From Myxococcales bacterium (GTDB lineage Bacteria; Myxococcota_A; Polyangia; DRWM01; JAAZOP01): a stretch of DNA of 36,239 nt. Location of the stretch: assembly GCA_012797735.1 (NCBI GenBank), contig JAAZOP010000160.1:1-36239 (forward strand), in the 5' to 3' direction. Below the pieces are notes generated by a model, which was given only the letters and a program-made list of their open reading frames with translations, was not told the origin of the DNA and ran no database searches. The position numbers and the translations under genes were made by a program. Shown here piece by piece: positions 22,896-32,663 of this stretch (position 1 is the stretch's first letter; each line of letters starts with the position of its first letter).

Positions 22896-22968
22896 GCCCA
22901 GGTAGCTCAGGTGGTAGAGCAGGGGACTGAAAATCCCCGTGTCGGCGGTTCAACTCCGTCCCTGGGCA
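22896..22968 (+). tRNA. tRNA-Phe (GAA)
   Basis: A full cloverleaf folds by hand: acceptor GCCCAGG/CCTGGGC (7 bp); D stem GCTC/GAGC; anticodon stem GGGGA/TCCCC with loop CTGAAAA and anticodon GAA at 22929-22931; variable loop GTGTC; T stem GGCGG/CCGTC (one G-T pair) with loop TTCAACT; discriminator A at 22968. No CCA is encoded. The 3' part from the anticodon loop onward is duplicated at 27058-27100. Confidence 0.97.
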
Positions 22969-22969
22969 C
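22927..22969 (+). repeat. attachment site copy 1, 3' part of tRNA-Phe
   Basis: These 43 bp run from the first base of the anticodon loop to one base beyond the discriminator and are identical to 27058-27100 in direct orientation. The bases on either side differ at both copies, so the match ends sharply. This is the classical footprint of site-specific integration at a tRNA gene. Confidence 0.9.
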
Positions 22970-23007
22970 TCGGTTTTCGGCGTTTTCGCGGGGTTCTGCG
23001 ACGGGGG

Positions 23008-23074
23008 GTCCCTGCCTACCCGCCCTCTACACTATTTCCGAGGGGGGGCAGGTGTCTCATCCACGTTGGCACGG
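23008..23074 (+). repeat. left arm of 66-67-bp inverted repeat
   Basis: 67 bp that match the complement of 24347-24412 with one substitution and one extra G in a G-run. Starts GTCCCTGCCTACCCGCC and ends CCACGTTGGCACGG. It lies 39 bp beyond the attachment site and 49 bp after the stop of the lipoprotein gene. It may be a solo insertion-sequence end or the terminal repeat of a cassette. Confidence 0.9.
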
Positions 23075-23123
23075 AGGAGGGGCAAGGAGGCCACCAAGGT
23101 TGGCGCCGAGGGACGGACGACCC

Positions 23124-24218
23124 CTACGGCGCGACGAGCGACAGCGGTAAGCGAACGCGGAAATCCCCTCCCTGCGGAGGGTTCGAGGTGAAGCTCATCG
23201 AACTCAGAACGGCTTGGATGCAGGCGGTTACGCCGGCCGCGTCCAGCCCGGGATCGTTCCGCTCGACCTCGACCGTCACGGTCCCCCGCGCGCTGATGGC
23301 GACGATGAAAGTCAGCTCGCCCGCCAGGGTCGGAGCGCTGCGCAGCTTTTCCTGGTAGCAGGCGTCGAGCGCTTCGCTCTTCTCGGCGAGGACCCGCCGG
23401 AACGTCCACCCGTCCATCTTCCCACTGCCGCCCGCGGGTTGTCCTCCAGAGTAGCTTCGGACCCTGCCGAGTCGCGGTCGCGCGGGTTCCGAAAGCATGT
23501 ACTCGTAGAGATAGAACTCATCGACCGACTTCGATTCCATCGTGGCGTCGGGGGCGAACACGAACTGGCTGTGCCCGACGCTCGCGGGACCCATGCCGCC
23601 CTCGAACAACACCCACATGTCCACCAAGACGCCGCCGTCCGGCTGTGCTTGCGCCCTGGGCGGCGTGAACGTGCGGCCTGCCCTTTCGAAAACCGGCATC
23701 GCCGTCTCCAGAATCTCGCCTCCGGCGATCTCCATGTCGGCAAACACGACCTTTCGCACCCACAGCATCGCCAGCCGCTCCCGCTCGGGCGGCGGCGCCG
23801 TCGTCCAGCCCATCGATGTCAGGACCCTGCTGGCAGCCTCCTCGACCCCATACACGCGGCACCGGTGGATGACGTGGGTGCGCAGGCAACCGACTTCCGT
23901 GGCCACCTTGCCCACGATGGCAGCACCGATCTCCGGAACCGGCATCGCGCACCGGTGGGCGCGTTCCTCCTCGTTGCCGGTGATCCGAACGAACGCGTCG
24001 ATCGCCTTTTCCGTCGTCGAGACGTCGCAAGCCGGCGTCTCTGTTGTCGAGGCGTCGCCAGCCGGCATCTCCGTTGGAGCCGACACCGGGCCAGCCGCGT
24101 CGTTCACACGCGCCGCCACGTCGGGACCAGGCGTGCCGTCGCCCTTCTTCGTCGTCCGGCGGCACGAGCTCGTGACAAGCGCCAGTATCACGACGGGTAT
24201 CAGCGCGACCAGCCTCAT
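23124..24218 (-). CDS. lipoprotein with AgmX/PglI-type C-terminal domain
   Basis: 364 residues. Signal peptide then C19 (LVTSSC). A Thr/Pro/Asp tether with two near repeats (STTETPACDVSTTEKA) runs to about 75. The middle (about 75-260) is not recognised; it has a Cys-containing N-terminal part (CLRTHVIHRC) and a strand-rich part. The last ~95 residues read AEKSEALDACYQEKLRSAPTL, GELTFIVAISARGTVTVEV, then VTACIQAVLSSMSF and a closing strand, matching the AgmX/PglI C-terminal domain common in Myxococcota, a TonB-C-like fold of unknown role. A gggagg ribosome site supports ATG 24218. The gene sits between long inverted repeats inside the island. Confidence 0.85.
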   Translation of the reverse strand: MRLVALIPVVILALVTSSCRRTTKKGDGTPGPDVAARVNDAAGPVSAPTEMPAGDASTTETPACDVSTTEKAIDAFVRITGNEEERAHRCAMPVPEIGAAIVGKVATEVGCLRTHVIHRCRVYGVEEAASRVLTSMGWTTAPPPERERLAMLWVRKVVFADMEIAGGEILETAMPVFERAGRTFTPPRAQAQPDGGVLVDMWVLFEGGMGPASVGHSQFVFAPDATMESKSVDEFYLYEYMLSEPARPRLGRVRSYSGGQPAGGSGKMDGWTFRRVLAEKSEALDACYQEKLRSAPTLAGELTFIVAISARGTVTVEVERNDPGLDAAGVTACIQAVLSSMSFTSNPPQGGDFRVRLPLSLVAP

Positions 24219-24257
24219 GGCAACCTCCCGGGCTGGTATTCGAGCCAACCCTCCGGC

Positions 24258-24287
24258 ATTCTGACTCCGCGAGTCGCATGTGATCAA
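24258..24287 (-). promoter_or_regulatory. candidate promoter of the island lipoprotein gene
   Basis: On the minus strand TTGATC (24287-24282), 18-bp spacer, CAGAAT (24263-24258), 40 bp before the ATG at 24218. The promoter lies inside the inverted-repeat unit, so gene and promoter would move together. Confidence 0.45.
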
Positions 24288-24346
24288 TGGCTGACCAACA
24301 AGTGCCGACCTCCACGTCGCGCAGGATTCGGCGAAGAAGGGGCCCC

Positions 24347-24412
24347 CCGTGCCAACGTGGATGAGACACCTGCCCCCCTCGAAAATAGTGTAGAGGGCGG
24401 GTAGGCAGGGAC
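24347..24412 (-). repeat. right arm of 66-67-bp inverted repeat
   Basis: 66 bp complementary to 23008-23074. It lies 84 bp upstream of the IS3-type orfA fragment in the orientation expected for an IS left end (it contains TGAGACACCTGCCCCC, which resembles IS3-family termini), so the repeat may come from that element. Confidence 0.9.
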
Positions 24413-24495
24413 GAGATAGGAAAGCAGAACGGACAGGTGACGGCAGCGACGGTGCAGGGGAGGTCGGGCCCACCGGGCCCGAGGCGGCCGCGGGG

Positions 24496-24864
24496 GTGGC
24501 CTCCGCGCCGGCGGTGGTGCCCGACCCTCAGGTGGAACGGCCGGCGCGGCGGACGTTCACCGCGGAGTACAAGAAGCGGGTCCTCGAGGAGGCGGACCGC
24601 TGCACCCCTGGAGACGGTGAGCGCGGCGCCCTCCTGCGTCGCGAGGGGCTGTACTCCTCGCACCTGACGACCTGGCGGGCGCAGCGTGCAGCGGGGACGC
24701 TGGCGGGCCTGGCGCCGAAGAAGCGCGGGCGCAAGCCGGCGCCGGCGCCGGAGCGTAGGAAATCCGACGCCCGTTTGGTTGCCGCCAAGCCATCCGCTCC
24801 TCGTGCTTCGCTGGTCGAAGCGGTAGCATCCGGGGCGAGTCGGGGCAACGGCGAGGCCGGGTGA
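24496..24864 (+). pseudogene. IS3-family OrfA transposase fragment
   Basis: The frame carries RRTFTAEYKKRVLEEAD, then GALLRREGLYSSHLTTW, then LAPKKRGRK, the helix-turn-helix segment typical of IS3-type OrfA proteins. After about 24735 the similarity ends in an unrelated low-complexity tail, and no OrfB (DDE integrase) follows, so the element is truncated. The GTG at 24496 is the first start codon in frame. A 6-bp hairpin (GCTTCG/CGAAGC, 24805-24821) lies in the stretch between this and the next IS fragment. Confidence 0.75.
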
Positions 24865-24876
24865 GAGGCCCGAAGG

Positions 24877-25545
24877 TCAGTCCTGCGCGACCGGCGGGAG
24901 CTGGGAGGCGTCGTCGTAGAGGGGAAGCTGGCAGTCCTCCTGCCAGGCCGGGTCGGCGAACTCGTCGGACGAGGGCGGCGAGCCGTCGTCCGGCGGCCGG
25001 CCGGCGGAGGGAGAGCCGCGACCAGCCGGTGGCCGGGGCGGCCGGGAGACGGGCAGCTCGTCGGGGTCGCGCGGAGGAGCGAAGGCGGCGGGCTCGGCGG
25101 ACACCCCGAGTCGCTCGAGATGGTCGCGGATGTCGTTCGGGTCGGTGACGGGGTCGAGGACCGCCATGCGGCCGCCGCACCTGGGGCAGACCAGCACGTC
25201 TTCCGCCCAGGTCCGTCGGAAGAGGTCGGGCCAATTCACGCGGGGCTGCCGGGCGAGGAGGCGGCCCTCATCGAGACGCCTCCAATGCTCGGCGGAGAGC
25301 GTGCGAGGGACGGGTGTCGGGGCCGCGAGCAGCGGGTCGTCGCCTTCGCCGAGGGTTGGGCGCGCCGGGACGGAATCGGGCGTCCGGGGAGGAACGGTCG
25401 GTGCCGGGTGGGTGGGCCCGCCTGCGGCCGGAGGATGTCGGCACGCGGGAGACGCCTCGGGTGGGCGCGGCACGATGCTGGAACGCCAGGGTGAGTTGGC
25501 AGCGAAGACTCCCGCGTAGCGAAGAAGCGGTGTCCCGTCGGCAAC
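24877..25545 (-). pseudogene. IS91-family transposase, C-terminal remnant
   Basis: The minus-strand frame reads, N to C, LLRYAGVFAANSPWRSSIVP, then a Pro-rich linker, then NWPDLFRRTWAEDVLVCPRC and GGRMAVLDPVTDPNDIRDHL, ending in an acidic tail. This is the C-terminal third of IS91-type (Y2, rolling-circle) transposases with its CPRCGG zinc motif. No start codon lies upstream; the similarity stops near 25545, where an IS66-like fragment on the other strand begins. The catalytic Tyr region is missing, so it cannot be active alone. Confidence 0.75.
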
Positions 25546-25566
25546 GGTGTGCAGGGCGGCGACGCC

Positions 25567-25716
25567 GGGCGCGAAGGCCGCTTTCGCGACGAGAAGGTGG
25601 CGGGCCTGTGCTCGGACCTGTACCTGCGGCGTCAGGTGCTGTGGACCTTCGCCCGGGAGCCGGGCGTCGAGCCCGCCTCCAGCCGCCGGGCCGTCGAGCC
25701 GGGGTCTGACACCTGA
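25567..25716 (+). pseudogene. IS66-family transposase fragment
   Basis: A 50-codon stretch reads GREGRFRDEKVAGLCSDLYL, then RRQVLWTFAREPGVEP, matching the segment of IS66-type transposases before the conserved PTNNxAER motif. Here PTNN is replaced by ASS and the frame ends in a stop at 25714. It abuts the IS91 remnant, giving a nested IS scar. Confidence 0.6.
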
Positions 25717-25736
25717 TCCTCGAACTCGCCTGCGCT

Positions 25737-26507
25737 TCAGCGACCACCCAGTCGGTCTGGCGCAAAGCGTCGCAACGCCCGCCGGGCCTTCGGATTCCGC
25801 GTGACGATCAGGTCATAGAGATACGGCCAGTATGATGTGACGTTCTGGTTCCCCTGCAACCGCGCCCGGACGAAACCCGCAGTTCGTAGCACGGGGTGCG
25901 TCCGCAGGTCCTCCAGGAAGATCGGGGCGTCGAGGCGGGCCAGGCACCTGAAGCGGCCGAACAGACCGGTGCCCTCGCGCCAGGCACAGCGCGAACGGCG
26001 GAGGTCGGAGTCCAACACGAAGATGTCCCGGATGCACCTTTCCGGCACGCACCGGTACATCAGCATCAGGTCGCCCTGATGGGCACTCTTGCGAGCCAAC
26101 CAATCCACTTGGTTGCGGTCGAGGTACTGCTGCTGCGACGCGATGGCGGGCTGGATCCAGACTTTGGGTCCAAGGCCGTAGAACTTCCGAAGCTCGATTA
26201 CGCGGAGGGACTCCGGGCGCTCGGGCCAGTCGTCCTCCCAGCAGACGATGCAGTCGCACCGCCGGGCGGAATGGCCGTGGGTACGGAAGCTGCTCGACCG
26301 GAACTCAAACTCGATTCGGACCCGCCGCTCGCCCCTGGTCCCCTTCTCGTAGGCGACACAGTCCGGAAACCCTTGGCGGATTTGTTCGACCCGCATTCGC
26401 AGCCTCTTCGCCAAGTGGGCGAAGAGGAAGACGACGCCCTGCTCGTTTGTCGGCGCCAAGCGCATCGGGCCACCTTCCAGCACGTCCGGTCGTTCCGTCT
26501 TCTTCAT
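25737..26507 (-). CDS. PD-(D/E)xK-like nuclease with C-terminal PUA/EVE-like domain, candidate defence protein
   Basis: 256 residues. N-terminal half: APTNEQGVVFLFAHLA with E22, GFPDCVAYE with D49, RVRIEFEFRSSSF with E66 and E68, and HGHSARRCDCIVCWEDDW. The order helix-Glu, PD, ExE, then a hydrophobic CDCIVCW strand fits a PD-(D/E)xK nuclease core, with R70 near the usual Lys position. C-terminal half (about 116-240): VWIQPAIAS, GDLMLMYRCVP, RDIFVLDSD, a PIFLEDLRTHP segment and YWPYLYDLIVTRN, resembling PUA/EVE-type modified-base readers. Both assignments rest on pattern recognition. The inference is recognition of modified nucleic acid coupled to cleavage, as in modification-dependent restriction. 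The gggagg site supports ATG 26507; an in-frame upstream extension is unlikely. It is less G+C-rich than its surroundings. Confidence 0.75.
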   Translation of the reverse strand: MKKTERPDVLEGGPMRLAPTNEQGVVFLFAHLAKRLRMRVEQIRQGFPDCVAYEKGTRGERRVRIEFEFRSSSFRTHGHSARRCDCIVCWEDDWPERPESLRVIELRKFYGLGPKVWIQPAIASQQQYLDRNQVDWLARKSAHQGDLMLMYRCVPERCIRDIFVLDSDLRRSRCAWREGTGLFGRFRCLARLDAPIFLEDLRTHPVLRTAGFVRARLQGNQNVTSYWPYLYDLIVTRNPKARRALRRFAPDRLGGR

Positions 26508-26538
26508 CGGTAGAACCTCCCGGCGCGGTCTCAGCCAG

Positions 26539-26769
26539 TTACTCACACTGAGGGGCAGCCTCCATTGACCGGCGAATCCAGTCCTCCGTGGTTCGTGCCC
26601 GAGCGACGTCCAACATGAACTCCTGCCTCCGGCTGACGAACCGGTGCAGCGTCCGGCCATCGCGGAAGCCCCACCGCCGTCGGTCCGCATGGTACCCGAC
26701 GCACGTCCCGGCGCGGAGCGGGCAGGTGGCCAGTCCGGCCTCCGCGATCACCCAGCCCGGTGACGGCAA
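26539..26769 (-). CDS. small hypothetical ORF upstream of the nuclease gene
   Basis: 76 codons from a TTG at 26769, ending 31 bp before the nuclease ATG. The peptide (GWVIAEAGLATCPLRAG, WGFRDGRTLHRFVSRR, QEFMLDVARARTTEDWIRRS) looks protein-like but matches nothing I know. Directly before the TTG and in the same frame is a TGA (26772-26770). Upstream of that, 17 codons from a GTG at 26823 have a strong ribosome site (gaggaggaagg). It may be one gene broken by a nonsense codon, or two coupled mini-ORFs. Confidence 0.4.
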   Translation of the reverse strand: MPSPGWVIAEAGLATCPLRAGTCVGYHADRRRWGFRDGRTLHRFVSRRQEFMLDVARARTTEDWIRRSMEAAPQCE

Positions 26770-26823
26770 TCACCGGGTCTCAGCGAAGCGACACCGGTGC
26801 TCGTCGGTGCAGTTCGTCTCCAC

Positions 26824-27057
26824 CCTTTCCTTCCTCCTCGGTCCGTCTCCTGCGACCGGGCCAGGGTACGCCGACACCGGTTTGGGTGTCCAGCCCCACG
26901 TCCGCGGCGCGGCGCCGCACCCGCAGGTTGCGGTCAGGCTGCCTCGCGCCGCCAGCGCGTCCGAGCGCACCCGATCTGTTACGCATGCGTTACGCAACCT
27001 TCCGCTTGCGCGCGAAAACAAAGCGAAGTTGGGGCCTTGTGGCACTCGTGTTCCGGT
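26824..27057. other. island right end without a gene
   Basis: About 230 bp between the small ORF and the second attachment site. The left edge holds the purine-rich ribosome site for minus-strand translation. I see no integrase, excisionase, repeat or stable hairpin in the remainder; plus-strand ORFs here are shadows that run on into the VWA gene. Confidence 0.5.
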
Positions 27058-27100
27058 CTGAAAATCCCCGTGTCGGCGGTTCAACTCCGTCCCTGGGCAC
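27058..27100 (+). repeat. attachment site copy 2, 3' part of tRNA-Phe
   Basis: 43 bp identical to 22927-22969. It lacks the 5' half of the tRNA, so it cannot make a tRNA. By the usual logic of tRNA integration this is the original 3' end, displaced from its 5' half when the island came in. Confidence 0.9.
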
Positions 27101-27159
27101 AAAGGAATTCGGCGAAATCGACGGGTTGCGGGACTCGCGCGGCGCGACGGCTGTCGGAC

Positions 27160-27239
27160 TTGATCCCTCCCCGTCCGGCACCGGATACTTCCCACGGTGG
27201 CGGTCGCTCGCCGGGCCATCCGGCTGCGGTGCCGGACGG
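27160..27239 (+). promoter_or_regulatory. promoter with embedded 13-bp inverted repeat
   Basis: TTGATC (27160-27165), 18-bp spacer and GATACT (27184-27189) form a promoter for the VWA lipoprotein gene; the start would be near 27196. CCGTCCGGCACCG at 27171-27183 fills the spacer and its exact complement lies at 27227-27239 in the leader. One arm is upstream of the start, so an RNA hairpin is excluded if this promoter is right; a DNA-level operator pair or loop is more plausible. Confidence 0.45.
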
Positions 27240-27254
27240 CAAGGGAGGGGACGG

Positions 27255-28304
27255 ATGCGGCGGGTCCTGCTGTGGATGGTGGCGCTGGGCGCTGCGGCGC
27301 CGACCGGCCTGTCGTTGGTCGGCTCCTCCGGTTGCGACGGCGGGGCCGAGGCGCCGTGCGTCGACCTGGAACTGCTGAAGGGCTGGGCCGCTCCGCCGGG
27401 CAACGTCGCGGTCTACTTCACGGTCGACACCTGCGCGGGTGAGCCCGTCCCCGGCCTCGTGCCGGACGACTTCGACATCAGCGAGGACGGCCTGACGGTC
27501 CCGCCGGCGCAGGGCAACCAGACGATCCTGAACGCCAGCATCGGGTTCCGGGTCCGCACGGTGCTCGTCCTCGGCCTGTCGGGGAGCGTGCTGGAGAGCC
27601 GGCCGGAGCTCCTCGCCGCCGCCCGGACGTTCGTCGAACGAACGGTGGCGGACGACAGCGAGGTCGCCGTCTACGTGTTCGACGGCGCCCCGACCATGCA
27701 GCGCATCGTGGACTTCACCGCGGATGCGACGGTGCTCCGGGACGGCATCGACTCGCTCTCCACCTGGGAGCCCCGCGACCTGTCCACGGACCTCCACGGG
27801 GCGATCCTCGAGGGGCTCGGCGTGCTGGACGCCGCCGCCCCGATCCCGATCAGCCTGGACGCCGTCCGCGCCGGCGGGATGGTGCTGTTCACGGACGGCA
27901 CCGATCGGGCCGCCCGTCATACGCAGGAGGAGGCGCAGGCCGCCGTCGACTCGACCCGGCACTTCGTGATGACGATCGGGCTCGGCGGCGCCATCGACCG
28001 GGCCGGACTGGAGCGTTTCGGCAAGGATGGATCGGAGTTCGCGGCCGGTGCGGAAGCCCTGGGGACCGCGTTTGAGCGGACGGCCGATCGCGTGCGGCGG
28101 ATGAGCGGTCGCTACTACGTGCTGGGCTACTGCTCGCCGAGCCGATCGGGCGCGCACACGATGGAGCTTCGCGTCGAGGGGCGGCGGGGGGAGCTGCGGT
28201 TCCGGTTCGACGCGGCCGGTTTCGGCGGGCTGTGCGATCCGAACCCGACGGGGGCGGATGCCGGCGCGGGTGCCGGCGGGGACGGCGACGCCGGAGGCAC
28301 CTAG
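27255..28304 (+). CDS. VWA-like lipoprotein with incomplete MIDAS
   Basis: 349 residues. Lipobox ends at C27 (VGSSGC). A short beta domain (about 45-90, PGNVAVYFTVDTC ... DDFDISEDG) precedes a von Willebrand A-like domain (about 95-300). The metal site normally reads DxSxS; here it is VLVLGLSGSV, with Gly at 107 where Asp is expected, while S109, S111 and the later MVLFTDGTD are kept. The C-terminus is a Gly/Ala/Asp tail. A gggagggg ribosome site supports ATG 27255. VWA lipoproteins bind proteins or peptides; loss of the Asp suggests weakened metal binding. It is the first chromosomal gene after the island. Confidence 0.85.
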   Translation: MRRVLLWMVALGAAAPTGLSLVGSSGCDGGAEAPCVDLELLKGWAAPPGNVAVYFTVDTCAGEPVPGLVPDDFDISEDGLTVPPAQGNQTILNASIGFRVRTVLVLGLSGSVLESRPELLAAARTFVERTVADDSEVAVYVFDGAPTMQRIVDFTADATVLRDGIDSLSTWEPRDLSTDLHGAILEGLGVLDAAAPIPISLDAVRAGGMVLFTDGTDRAARHTQEEAQAAVDSTRHFVMTIGLGGAIDRAGLERFGKDGSEFAAGAEALGTAFERTADRVRRMSGRYYVLGYCSPSRSGAHTMELRVEGRRGELRFRFDAAGFGGLCDPNPTGADAGAGAGGDGDAGGT

Positions 28305-28436
28305 GCGGACCCCGGGGGAAGCGCCGCCGCCGGGGTGTCCCGTCCGGGCCGTTCCGGAAGACCCTCGCGGCGGCGGCGATTCGCGCAGCGGCTGCCCGGG
28401 AGGCGACACGGTGGGTTCCCGGGACGGAGGAAACCG

Positions 28437-28565
28437 ATGACTCTCGACGACCTGGCGCCGCGGGTCGAGCGAACGCTGCGCGCCCTGTCCGTGCCGGAGT
28501 GCTCGCCGGTCGTCGTGGACGCGGCGGCGGGCGGTGGCGGCGGCGCGGGGAGGTCACGACGGTGA
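28437..28565 (+). CDS. possible small ORF overlapping the symporter start
   Basis: 42 codons from an ATG with a good ribosome site (ggacggagg). The peptide starts MTLDDLAPRVERTLRALSVP and ends in Gly and Arg residues. Its stop TGA overlaps the GTG start of the symporter by 4 bp (GTGA), the usual geometry of translational coupling. It has no membrane segment and no family I know. Since the downstream gene is damaged, this one may also be a remnant. Confidence 0.4.
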   Translation: MTLDDLAPRVERTLRALSVPECSPVVVDAAAGGGGGAGRSRR

Positions 28566-29711
28566 TCGCGGTCTTCGTCCTGTACCTCGTGCTGCTGATG
28601 GCGCTCTCGTTCTGGACGGCGCGGATGTCCCGGACGTCGGCCGACGCAGTTCTACGGCGGCGGGAAGGTGCTGTACGACACCTTCGGCATCCCGCCGATC
28701 TGGGGCGTGGTGATCGGTTCGCTGGTGGTGGTCTTCTACTGCATGATCGGCGGGTTCATCACGGTGGTGGCGACCGACGTGCTGCAGGCGATCCTGATGA
28801 TCGTCTCGCTGGTCGTGATGCCGATCCTGCTGCTGTTCGTGATGGCCTCGCACGACCTGGATCTGGCGGCGGCGATGCGCCAGGCCGGCGCGTCGTACGT
28901 GTCGCTCACCGGGGGCGAGACCGGCGCGGCGGCGGTGTTGCTGGTGGCGAGCGGCCTGAGCTGGGCGTTGGGGTACACGGGGCAGCCGCAGCTCCTGACC
29001 CGGATCATGCTGCTGCGCAACCGCCGGGACCACGACCGCGGCAAGTGGGTGGCCGCCGCCTGGACGCTCGTCGCGTACGCCGGCGCGATGCTGATCGGCT
29101 ACCTCGGCATCGCGTTCGTGCAGGGCGGCCTGATCGGCGGCGACGCCGTGGCGCGGCTCTCGGACACGGAGCACAAGGGCTTCGAGCTGATCTTCCCGGT
29201 GCTGGTCAACACCTTCCTGCTGCCGGTGCTCGCGGGGATCATGCTCTCGGGCGCGATCTCGGCGATGATGTCGACCGCCTCCGCGGAGATCCTCCTCTGC
29301 TCCTCGACGATCACCCAGGACCTGCACGGGAACTTCGCCCGGAGGAAGATGGAGGAGCGCCGGGCGCTGTGGTTCAACCGCGTCGTGACGCTGGCCGTGG
29401 GGCTGGCCGCCTTCCTGCTCGCCTTGACCGTGCGGGACTCGGTGTTCGGACTCGTCTCGTACACCTGGTCCGGGATCGGCTCGTCGTTCGGTCCCGCGCT
29501 GCTGCTGATCCTGTTCTGGAAGCGGGTCTCGCGCGCCGGCGTCGTCGCCTCGTTCGTCTCGGGGACCGCGGGCACGATCGTCTGGAAGAGTCTCTTCGAG
29601 CGGCAGACCGGGGTTTCGGAGAGGCTGACGAGCTTCCTCTTCGCGTTCGCGATGGCGGTGCTGTTCTCGCTGCTGCTGCCGGAGAAGCGGGCGGCGGCGG
29701 GCGGTGGCTGA
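28562..29711 (+). pseudogene. sodium:solute symporter (SSS/PutP type) with internal deletion and frameshift
   Basis: The start (GTG 28562) encodes the first membrane helix, VIAVFVLYLVLLMALSFWTAR, up to TSAD at about 28645. At that point the frame shifts by one and the protein resumes as QFYGGGKVLYDTFGIPP. Aligned by eye to E. coli PutP, about residues 34-144 are missing, including the helices that hold part of the sodium site. The rest is well kept: VATDVLQAILMIVS, GYTGQPQLLTRIM, AGIMLSGAISAMMSTASAEI and LVSYTWSGIGSSFGPALL, to a normal end at 29711. An ORF from GTG 28668 could still be translated but would lack the first helices. A single deletion explains all this; an assembly error is the alternative. 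Confidence 0.8.
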
Positions 29712-29762
29712 GGCCGGCCGGGCGCGCCGGCCGCCGCCGGATCGGGAGGCACCCGGGGGTGC
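29712..29762. terminator. hairpins between convergent genes
   Basis: Immediately after the symporter stop is a 7-bp stem GGCCGGC/GCCGGCC (29712-29732, loop 7). A second stem GCACCC/GGGTGC is at 29749-29762, 13 bp before the stop of the minus-strand lipoprotein gene. The pair suits one terminator per direction; T-tracts are absent. Confidence 0.4.
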
Positions 29763-29774
29763 GGCGGGCCGGTC

Positions 29775-32663
29775 TCAGGGCACGACCGCGGGGACGCCGT
29801 CACGGGCGGCGGTGCCGAGGAACTGGGCGATGCGGCGCCGGGCCGCGGCGTCCCGCGCGGCGACGAAGTGCCCGTCCTCGCCCGCCGGCGGTTCGTGCAT
29901 CGTGAGCACGCCCGTCACGCTCGCCGCGCCGACGCGCCGGTTGCCGGCGGCGGGCAGGGCGACCGAGGCGAAGGGGCCGATGTCGTCGAGCACCGGCTCG
30001 GCGATCGCCAGCCACAGGGCGCCGGCGAGCGCCGACTGGGCGTTCTTCGGGGCGTAGGTGTCCCGCAGCCCGTAGACCTGGAGGACGTGGCGGGCCGCCA
30101 GCGGGACGAACGGCGCGGGGAGGACGTGGCGGGCGTAGTTCACCGGGTCGGCCACCTCGAGGTACGTCTGGAAGACGGTGAGGGCGGGGTGGGCGCCGCC
30201 GAGGTCCGGGTCGGCGAGCGCCATGCGCAGGGCGCCGGCGACGTCGTAGGGCGAGGTCTTCGAGAGTAGCACGTCGGTCAGGGAGCCGGCGGCGCCGGAC
30301 AGCACCGCCGCGGCGAACGAGCCGTCGAAGGGGAGGGCCGTCACGCCGTGCGTCGCGCCCTGCGAGTGCCCGAGGAAGTAGGTCCGCGTCGCGTCGAAGC
30401 GGACCGCCTCGCCGGTGGGCGACGTGCCGGCGTCCCAGTCGGTCGCGGCGAGCAGGCGGGCGGCCTGCCAGAGATCGACCGCGCCCTGCAGGACGTTGCC
30501 ATAGGTCGCCGCCGGGTTCTCGAAGTGGAAGAACAGCCGTTCGGGATCCTCGGTCGAGCCGCCGCGGCGGGCGCCGTGCATCGGCGCCTCGAAGGAGAGG
30601 ACGGCGAAACGCTGCACGGTGGCATCGTCGAGCGTGACGGCGGCGAGGTCTGCGGCGAGGCCGTCCTCGATGAACGAGCGGTAGTGGCCGCCGGTGCCGT
30701 GGGCGACGACGACCACGGGCCAGCCGCCCGCGGGCATCGGGCCGCCGCGCGGGATCGAGAGCGCGAAGCAGACCGGTTCGTCGCGCTGCCGCACGGGGCG
30801 GCCGGCGCCGTCGAGCGCGAAGCCGCCGCCGTCGGCCGGGGTCGCGTAGGGGGCGGTGCCCTCCTGGAACACCGGCGTCGGGAACCGCCCCTGCACCTCG
30901 AAGAACGCCGGGTCCTCGCCGAAACAGCCGCGCACGTGCTCCTCGCCCGCCAGACCGTCGTCGCAGGGCGAGACCGTTCCGGCCGTGCAACGGACCAAGT
31001 CGGACGCCGCGGGCGGGGGGAGCGCCTCGACGACCTCGCGGGTCCGCTGGAGCAGGGCCGGGACGTTCTTCGTGGTGAACTGGGCGGCGACGAGGATCGA
31101 GGCGGGGTCGATGCCGTCGTGGGCGAGGTAGGCGCGGAAGGGAGCGTAGGCGTCCCAGGCGCGGGCCGCGGCGTCGTCCCCGGCCGGCCGCGACGGCCCG
31201 ACGACGAGCGCGAAGTCGGCGTCCTGGGTCATCGGCCGGCCGGCGGCGTCGAGCACGCCGGTGGTGAGGACGACGGCGTAGGTGCGGCCCGGCTCGTAGG
31301 GCGACCCGCGCGGGGGACGCACGGCCAGCCAGTCGCGGCACAGGTACCGGCCGCCGCCGGTCGAGGCGCTCCAGCCGAAGCCGAGCCGCCGGTGGCGATC
31401 GCCGGGCGACGCCGGCGGCGTGAGGTCGACCACGTAGATCGTCGGCGTCGCGCCGCCCGCCTCGAGGGTGTCCCAGTTCAGGCCGGCGGACGAGCGGAGG
31501 ATCACGGCGCCGTTGGTGGCGAAGCCGACCCGGTCGCGCTCGAGCGCGCGCAGGTAGCGGTCGAGGACATCGACCGGGAGGCCGGCGGTGTCCGGGTGCG
31601 GGAAGCCGGAGAGGTCGAGGTGGCCGTCGGCGGTGCGGCGGATGTCGTTGGGCCACGGGAGGCGGAAGAAGTCGTGGCCGGGGGCGAGGGGGCCGCGGGG
31701 GATCTCGAAGTAGATGCGCGAAGGGGTGTCGGTTTCGCGCGGCGTGCACGCGACTCCTTCCCACAGCGGGTAGCCGGGGCCGCCGTCGGCCCCGGCGGCG
31801 CGGACGCAGGTGCCCTCGGCGCTGCAGGCCAGCCCCGCCGCGCAATCCTCGACGGTCGCGCAGGGGAAGCCGAGGTCGCCGTCGGGGGCCGCCGGCGTGC
31901 AGCGGCCGCCGTATCCCTGGGTCGCGCAGACGAGGCCCGGGGCGCAGTCGGCGGTCGACCCGCAGAACGTCCCCGCCGCGGCGTCCACGGCGGGGAGACA
32001 GAGGGTCTGCGGCGCGCCCCGCTCGTCGCGACCCCACAGGCAGGCCAGCCCGGGGGCGCAGTCGGCGGTGTACGTGCATTCCCCGCCTTCCGCCGTCGTG
32101 CCGGCCGGGCCGCAGGTGCGGTCGTCGCGGCAGACGAGGCCGGTGCGGCAGTCGGTGTCGAGCATGCAGGGGTCGCCGAGGCCCGGGCGGCCGCAACGGC
32201 CGTTGCCGCGGCAGATCAGGTCGGAGCGGCAGTCGTCCGCGACGGAGCAGGGTTCGTCGAGACCGCCGGGGCCGCAGCGGCCGTCGCTGCGGCACACGTA
32301 CTCCCACCAGCAGTCGTCGTCCTGTTCGCAGGGGTCTCCCAGGCCGGCCTGGCGGCAGGCGCCGTCCTCGCCGCAGACCAGCTCCGGGAGGCAGTCGGTC
32401 TCCTCCGTGCAGGAGGCGCCGACGCCGCCGTCGGCGCAGGTGCCGTCGGCGCGGCAGACGACCTCCTCCCCGGTGCAGTCGGAGTCCTCCAGGCAGATGC
32501 CGCAGACCCCTTCCGGCCGGCAGATCAGGTCCGGGAGGCAGTCGGCTTCGTCCTCGCACGGGTCGCCGATGTCGCCGGGGGCGGTCCGCCGGCGTTCGCC
32601 TCCGGAGCAGCCCGCCGCGACGGCGGCGCAGAACAGGACGGTCGCGGGCACGCATCGAGTCAT
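29775..32663 (-). CDS. large lipoprotein: Dickkopf-like Cys repeats plus lipase-type alpha/beta-hydrolase
   Basis: 962 residues. Lipobox ends at C19. Residues 36-286 are nine Cys repeats of the form C-x5-C-x6-C-x5-C with small changes (for example DPCEQDDDCWWEYVC). A second part starts with IYFEIPRGPLAPGHDFFRLPWPND, the P-x-PND signature seen at the N-terminus of bacterial virulence-factor-type lipases. The C-terminal alpha/beta hydrolase has the oxyanion strand VVVVAHGTGG and the nucleophile elbow FLGHSQGATHG with S767; YGLRDTYAP and a late TMHEPP are candidates for acid and His. A lipid-anchored esterase or lipase is inferred. The ggagg ribosome site supports ATG 32663. Confidence 0.87.
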   Translation of the reverse strand: MTRCVPATVLFCAAVAAGCSGGERRRTAPGDIGDPCEDEADCLPDLICRPEGVCGICLEDSDCTGEEVVCRADGTCADGGVGASCTEETDCLPELVCGEDGACRQAGLGDPCEQDDDCWWEYVCRSDGRCGPGGLDEPCSVADDCRSDLICRGNGRCGRPGLGDPCMLDTDCRTGLVCRDDRTCGPAGTTAEGGECTYTADCAPGLACLWGRDERGAPQTLCLPAVDAAAGTFCGSTADCAPGLVCATQGYGGRCTPAAPDGDLGFPCATVEDCAAGLACSAEGTCVRAAGADGGPGYPLWEGVACTPRETDTPSRIYFEIPRGPLAPGHDFFRLPWPNDIRRTADGHLDLSGFPHPDTAGLPVDVLDRYLRALERDRVGFATNGAVILRSSAGLNWDTLEAGGATPTIYVVDLTPPASPGDRHRRLGFGWSASTGGGRYLCRDWLAVRPPRGSPYEPGRTYAVVLTTGVLDAAGRPMTQDADFALVVGPSRPAGDDAAARAWDAYAPFRAYLAHDGIDPASILVAAQFTTKNVPALLQRTREVVEALPPPAASDLVRCTAGTVSPCDDGLAGEEHVRGCFGEDPAFFEVQGRFPTPVFQEGTAPYATPADGGGFALDGAGRPVRQRDEPVCFALSIPRGGPMPAGGWPVVVVAHGTGGHYRSFIEDGLAADLAAVTLDDATVQRFAVLSFEAPMHGARRGGSTEDPERLFFHFENPAATYGNVLQGAVDLWQAARLLAATDWDAGTSPTGEAVRFDATRTYFLGHSQGATHGVTALPFDGSFAAAVLSGAAGSLTDVLLSKTSPYDVAGALRMALADPDLGGAHPALTVFQTYLEVADPVNYARHVLPAPFVPLAARHVLQVYGLRDTYAPKNAQSALAGALWLAIAEPVLDDIGPFASVALPAAGNRRVGAASVTGVLTMHEPPAGEDGHFVAARDAAARRRIAQFLGTAARDGVPAVVP
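31806..32558 (-). repeat. nine Cys-rich (Dickkopf-like) coding repeats
   Basis: Nine units with four Cys each, joined by short Gly-rich links such as GGVG, AGLG and RPGLG. Units 3-6 are closest in length and sequence; units 7 and 8 carry insertions before the last Cys. Divergence at the DNA level indicates an old expansion. Confidence 0.85.

Follow-up and report, generated by a model that had tools for sequence, protein, structure and literature searches.

Perfect attachment repeats at a tRNA-Phe gene enclose a probable relic of an integrative element in a Myxococcales genome

In the window, by which we mean the whole analyzed stretch of 36,239 bp, a tRNA-Phe gene is followed at some distance by an exact copy of its own 3' part, and the first-pass annotation, having seen no recombinase in between, supposed that such an island would need an integrase supplied in trans, like a satellite element. 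The locus thus raises the question of how the island came to the tRNA gene and whether it can still move. We conclude that the island is very probably the decayed remnant of an integrative element, either a temperate phage or a genomic island, that was inserted at tRNA-Phe by its own tyrosine integrase.

Attachment repeats and recurrent integration at tRNA-Phe

The target gene and the two repeat copies are as follows.
22896–22969, plus strand: tRNA-Phe(GAA), the regenerated target gene (ARAGORN; 100% identity in three congeneric genomes)
22927–22969, plus strand: attL core, 43 bp, from the anticodon loop to one base past the discriminator (exact repeat)
27058–27100, plus strand: attR core, the displaced tRNA-Phe 3' fragment (exact repeat; two copies only in the genome)

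The repeat proved exact, at the positions first reported: 22927–22969 equals 27058–27100 over 43 bp without a mismatch; the block takes in the anticodon loop from its first base onward and reaches one base past the discriminator. The bases directly flanking it differ (A/T upstream, T/A downstream), and two more bases are identical upstream of the mismatch, giving a match of 45/46. The 43-bp sequence has two matches only in the 5.3-Mb assembly of its own genome; the chance occurrence of an exact 43-mer is negligible. The same tRNA-Phe block is also seen as attP or as a displaced fragment in other genomes and in viral contigs, and a functional reading of the perfect repeats is not required. Upstream of the tRNA gene, the segment 22759–22867 is found again in congeners, near contig starts and at other places, and is possibly a promoter region common to rRNA operons.

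In relatives of this bacterium, tRNA-Phe is a recurrent integration site. Among the metagenome-assembled genomes compared, a tyrosine integrase sits at the 3' end of tRNA-Phe in six (G001, G003, G008, G028, G029, and the LakeFargette MAG; two belong to the same genus), and four of the six (G001, G028, G029, and LakeFargette) have a displaced fragment as well. In G001, one contig contains the tRNA, the integrase at a distance of about 2.3 kb, and the fragment 32.5 kb downstream, while in the other three genomes the fragment is on another contig. G003 has its integrase about 0.2–0.3 kb from the tRNA and no second fragment; further inward it encodes RecA-like and sliding-clamp-like proteins and a repressor-type regulator. 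Three congeners share synteny through the upstream genes and tRNA-Phe, and the DNA after the tRNA differs. Four IMG/VR viral contigs (L147–L150) have the core fragment as an attP that adjoins or lies within an integrase ORF, whose frame crosses the attP core in three of them; the viral-contig proteins sampled include a terminase-like protein on one contig and a phage exonuclease on another. The ten integrases from the six genomes and four viral contigs form one clade (support 99/95), set apart in the tree from XerC/D and from the other integrases compared.

The tRNA, fragment, and integrase combination in four related genomes and the four viral attP sites bear out the annotated tRNA-Phe island as one bounded by site-specific attachment sites. 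The abundant IS remnants in the island might instead suggest an IS-mediated or random duplication of the tRNA fragment, made without any integrase; however, independent elements and viral contigs break at near-identical tRNA positions (27–32 to 74) and possess integrases and arm repeats, and we disfavor such a duplication as very improbable.

Missing integrase and the anatomy of the two inner ends

Searches of the island for a tyrosine recombinase by tblastn with the ten related integrases, and by an unfiltered profile search of all six island frames, returned nothing above background, and no integrase pseudogene was found in the island beyond short tail scraps. The genome, whose assembly is rated 99.85% complete (662 contigs), has two PF00589 matches only, both XerC/XerD-like: one fits the XerC/XerD family models best and the other XerC, although both fall short of the strict equivalog cut-offs and one is cut by a contig end. 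The absence of a visible recombinase is thus confirmed for the island, with only XerC/XerD-like proteins genome-wide, and since the island has no integrase gene we file it as a remnant rather than as an intact tRNA-integrated element.

Three short features at the inner ends bear on the lost enzyme.
22970–23007, minus strand: 38-bp remainder of the original left end, where an antisense frame extends into the tRNA with 12 codons free of stops (PVAEPRENAENR)
26977–26997, plus strand: P-arm-like site, GTTACGCA twice, 11 bp apart, beginning 80 bp before the right core
26990–27057, minus strand: putative remnant of an integrase C-terminal tail in its attP form (...GFSDRNTSATRPQLRFVFARKRKVA*), an open antisense frame through the core

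Short direct repeats common to both inner ends, as for integrase arm sites, occur in G001, LakeFargette, and G028; such repeats are usually paired, about 11–12 bp apart, and mostly some 80–105 bp from the core. At the right end of the island, the GTTACGCA pair matches G028, LakeFargette, and the viral attP sites in its spacing and distance from the core, and nowhere else in the 36-kb window is an 8-mer directly repeated without mismatch at period 11; a loose repeat score (period 10–13) is equalled in 12% of random segments, so that only the exact period-11 form is rare. The exact arm sequence also occurs in viral contig L151, where no core is nearby, and we took that occurrence as chance. The antisense frame through the right core has no stop for 23 codons and leads into a basic tail, SDRNTSATRPQLRFVFARKRKVA, which can be aligned with SGRAPKVPRPRLRVIFPRPDGTK, the tail at the LakeFargette fragment, and shares a shorter L-R motif with G028 and three viral attP sites, these similarities being judged by eye and without a significance test. 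This frame looks like a remnant of the element's own integrase tail and would fit an attP that once lay inside the integrase gene, an arrangement described for phage Mx8, with attP inside int (PMC6070905), and noted too in the Islander paper (PMC4383910).

The left end is reduced further. An end of a truncated insertion sequence starts 38 bp past the tRNA and occupies the expected position of both the left arm site and the integrase, and no arm-type repeat was found at this inner end. The PVAEPRENAENR frame may possibly represent the last codons of the lost integrase, a weak suggestion from a reading too short for proof.

These ends bear directly on whether the island is a living satellite or mini-island, mobilized in trans when phages or islands specific for tRNA-Phe supply their integrase. 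Both cores are perfect, the right arm pair is intact, and helper-type elements with a matching attP exist among the viral contigs; however, an IS end stands in place of the left arm site, the genome holds no candidate integrase beyond XerC/D, no packaging, regulatory, or replication genes were recognized, and the cargo comes down to IS debris, an orphan ORF, and one gene that has relatives elsewhere in the genome. We therefore regard a living satellite as improbable, and slightly more so a minimal passive element that tRNA-Phe-clade phages would keep mobile through one arm site and two perfect cores. The proposed dependence on an integrase in trans was not upheld: with the left arm region gone, a tail like that of an own integrase at the right end, and no recognized satellite genes, loss of a former integrase is the simpler account.

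Island content and the right flank

The interior between the two inner ends contains the following features.
23008–23077, minus strand: 70-bp terminal piece of a truncated IS copy whose outer end is 23077 (97% to 24344–24412 inverted and to own contig C156:5001–5069)
23127–24218, minus strand: lipoprotein-like ORF with an AgmX/PglI C-terminal (myxo_SS_tail) domain (NCBIfam NF033768, 1.4e-12, above cut-off)
24343–24744, plus strand: IS fragment, a 70-bp end followed by an orfA-like coding sequence (ORF 24496–24864; 83% to C156)
24749–25530, minus strand: 3' fragment of an IS91-type (Y2) transposase with further copies in the genome (93–97% to C321, C147, and C634)
25737–26510, minus strand: 257-aa ORF without an assigned family (searched in Pfam, NCBIfam, PADLOC, and PDB without a match)
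26539–26769, minus strand: ORF of 76 aa, no family assigned (ORF list; Pfam and NCBIfam searches)

The two 43-bp copies are separated by 4,088 bp. The lower G+C annotated for the DNA between them holds overall, at 0.690 vs. 0.739 for the rest of the window, where sampled 4.1-kb segments range from 0.722 to 0.760 and all exceed the island; it is not evenly low, however, since the IS91-like part (24501–25500), at 0.749, is as rich as the surroundings. The description of the island as IS-rich stands, as both 24749–25530 (93–97%) and 24343–24744 (83%) have copies on other contigs of the same genome. The full C321 paralog of the former carries the Pfam domain Y2_Tnp (6.6e-16), and the latter has weak HTH_Tnp_1 and IS66 TnpA matches below cut-off. 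The 70-bp inverted pair was considered as a transposon around the lipoprotein gene and rejected after comparison with C156, in which the 70-bp sequence is the outer end of an insertion sequence; both outer ends face the gene at 23127–24218, and the 70-bp copies are therefore the ends of two truncated IS copies.

The lipoprotein-like ORF has related sequences in the same genome on C405, C551, and C370. For the 257-aa ORF, there is one partial match among 58 relatives (G011, C8) and no match in viral, plasmid, phage, and PDB collections, and its structure prediction (pLDDT 34) was left unused; a nuclease-like motif, FPDC...EFEF...CDCIVCW, was noted by eye only. Family searches recognized no packaging, regulatory, or replication genes among the island ORFs, and a promoter/terminator scan found none.

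Past the right core, two features mark the flank.
27255–28304, plus strand: gene for a VWA-domain protein (TIGR03436, 1.7e-14, below its cut-off)
28549–30000, plus strand: backbone homology to congener G002 (C268), including a sodium/solute symporter gene at 28668–29711 (sequence and family matches)

tRNA-Phe joined directly to the flank at 27101 was seen in no sampled genome: G001 and G003 are occupied, the G002 contig ends at the tRNA, and across the congeners and the comparison of G020 with G028 the sites were occupied, contig-limited, or not syntenic. As the sampled genomes offer no empty site, we infer the insertion of this very island from its ends. Four contigs (G002:C56, G017:C232, G025:C26, and G031:C208) end within about ten bases of the tRNA-Phe 3' end, the G025 match stopping at tRNA base 66 of 74, a pattern that may come from a mixture of occupied and empty sites in the sampled populations.

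The segment 27101–28548 has no match in congeners, so the event may have exceeded 4.1 kb. Its first bases (27101–27127) resemble the sequence after tRNA-Phe in G003 (19/27 by eye; the alignment runs 10 bp past the core), which hints at a tandem or attP-like junction. A tandem or larger insertion would make the copy at 27058 a middle attP-like site, with the DNA past 27100, at least to about 28548, co-inserted; apart from the likeness to G003, it would account for a VWA gene unmatched in G001–G003 and for G002 homology that begins only at 28549. On the other hand, neither the window nor the genome has a third fragment, 27101–29000 shows no integrase similarity, and VWA homologs occur widely in the class (in 13 of 28 other genomes), and we consider the larger insertion doubtful, no likelier than the living satellite. 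An assembly chimera, a metagenome contig joined at the 43-bp repeat, might be suspected from the fragmentation into 662 contigs, yet other contigs of this genome carry copies of the island IS fragments, the right flank is ~85% identical to congener G002, and the right end has P-side features unexpected from a chance join, all of which makes a chimera scarcely credible, the least probable of the readings.

Thus, the island has a decayed middle between what appear to be the ends of an integrative element belonging to the tRNA-Phe integrase clade, and is most likely a relic of an ordinary kind at a site that relatives use repeatedly. We propose that the element's own integrase would have recombined a 43–46 bp core, from the anticodon loop to the 3' end, with the same stretch of tRNA-Phe, which would have restored the tRNA at the left and displaced the old 3' end to 27058–27100. 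The integrase gene would have lain at the left end and read toward the core, its frame probably running across attP as in several of the relatives and phage Mx8. Insertion sequences and deletion may later have stripped away most of the cargo together with the left arm site and the body of the integrase, so that the lipoprotein gene and an orphan ORF would survive alongside IS fragments, both cores, the arm site at the right, and a piece of the integrase tail. With one arm region lost and the enzyme missing from the genome, the island can probably no longer move.

Comparison with known systems

Perfect attachment repeats that lack an accompanying integrase are not necessarily the mark of a satellite. 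PICI-like phage-inducible satellites, also small islands at an attachment site, carry their own integrase and regulatory genes; none of their hallmarks (own integrase, regulator, packaging-interference genes) was recognized among the ORFs of the window island. The 32.5-kb G001 element (JACRCZ010000048.1) has the same tRNA, core, and integrase side as the window island, but differs in its intact integrase, many defense-type genes (methylase, GmrSD, STAND NTPase), and other arm sequences. Its island (C5:23537–56160) encodes a cytosine methylase, GmrSD, an HATPase-type ATPase, an STAND-like NTPase, and a ParB protein, and is rich in restriction and other defense-type genes, including the HATPase/GmrSD pair. 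The tRNA-Phe integrase clade is common to viral contigs and defense-gene islands of uncultured Myxococcota-type bacteria, for which it could supply integration tools.

The likeness to phage Mx8 (PMC6070905) lies in the integrase frame that crosses the core in the related elements and viral contigs, so that integration alters the integrase C-terminus, and in the similar-looking tail kept at the right end of the window; however, Mx8 has another target and no demonstrated relationship to these integrases. When one clade integrase was compared with a phage collection, the best-covering matches were about 24–33% identical, and Mx8 was not among the matches listed. Islander requires an integrase gene (PMC4383910), whereas the window island has lost its own; arm sites and part of an integrase tail can survive at an outer edge and reveal which enzyme was lost. 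A close likeness in form is to the Islander subsite A islands and prophages, with crossover in the anticodon loop, which have the same regenerated tRNA and displaced direct 3' fragment at their ends and a repeat that likewise spans the anticodon loop to the 3' end (PMC4383910).
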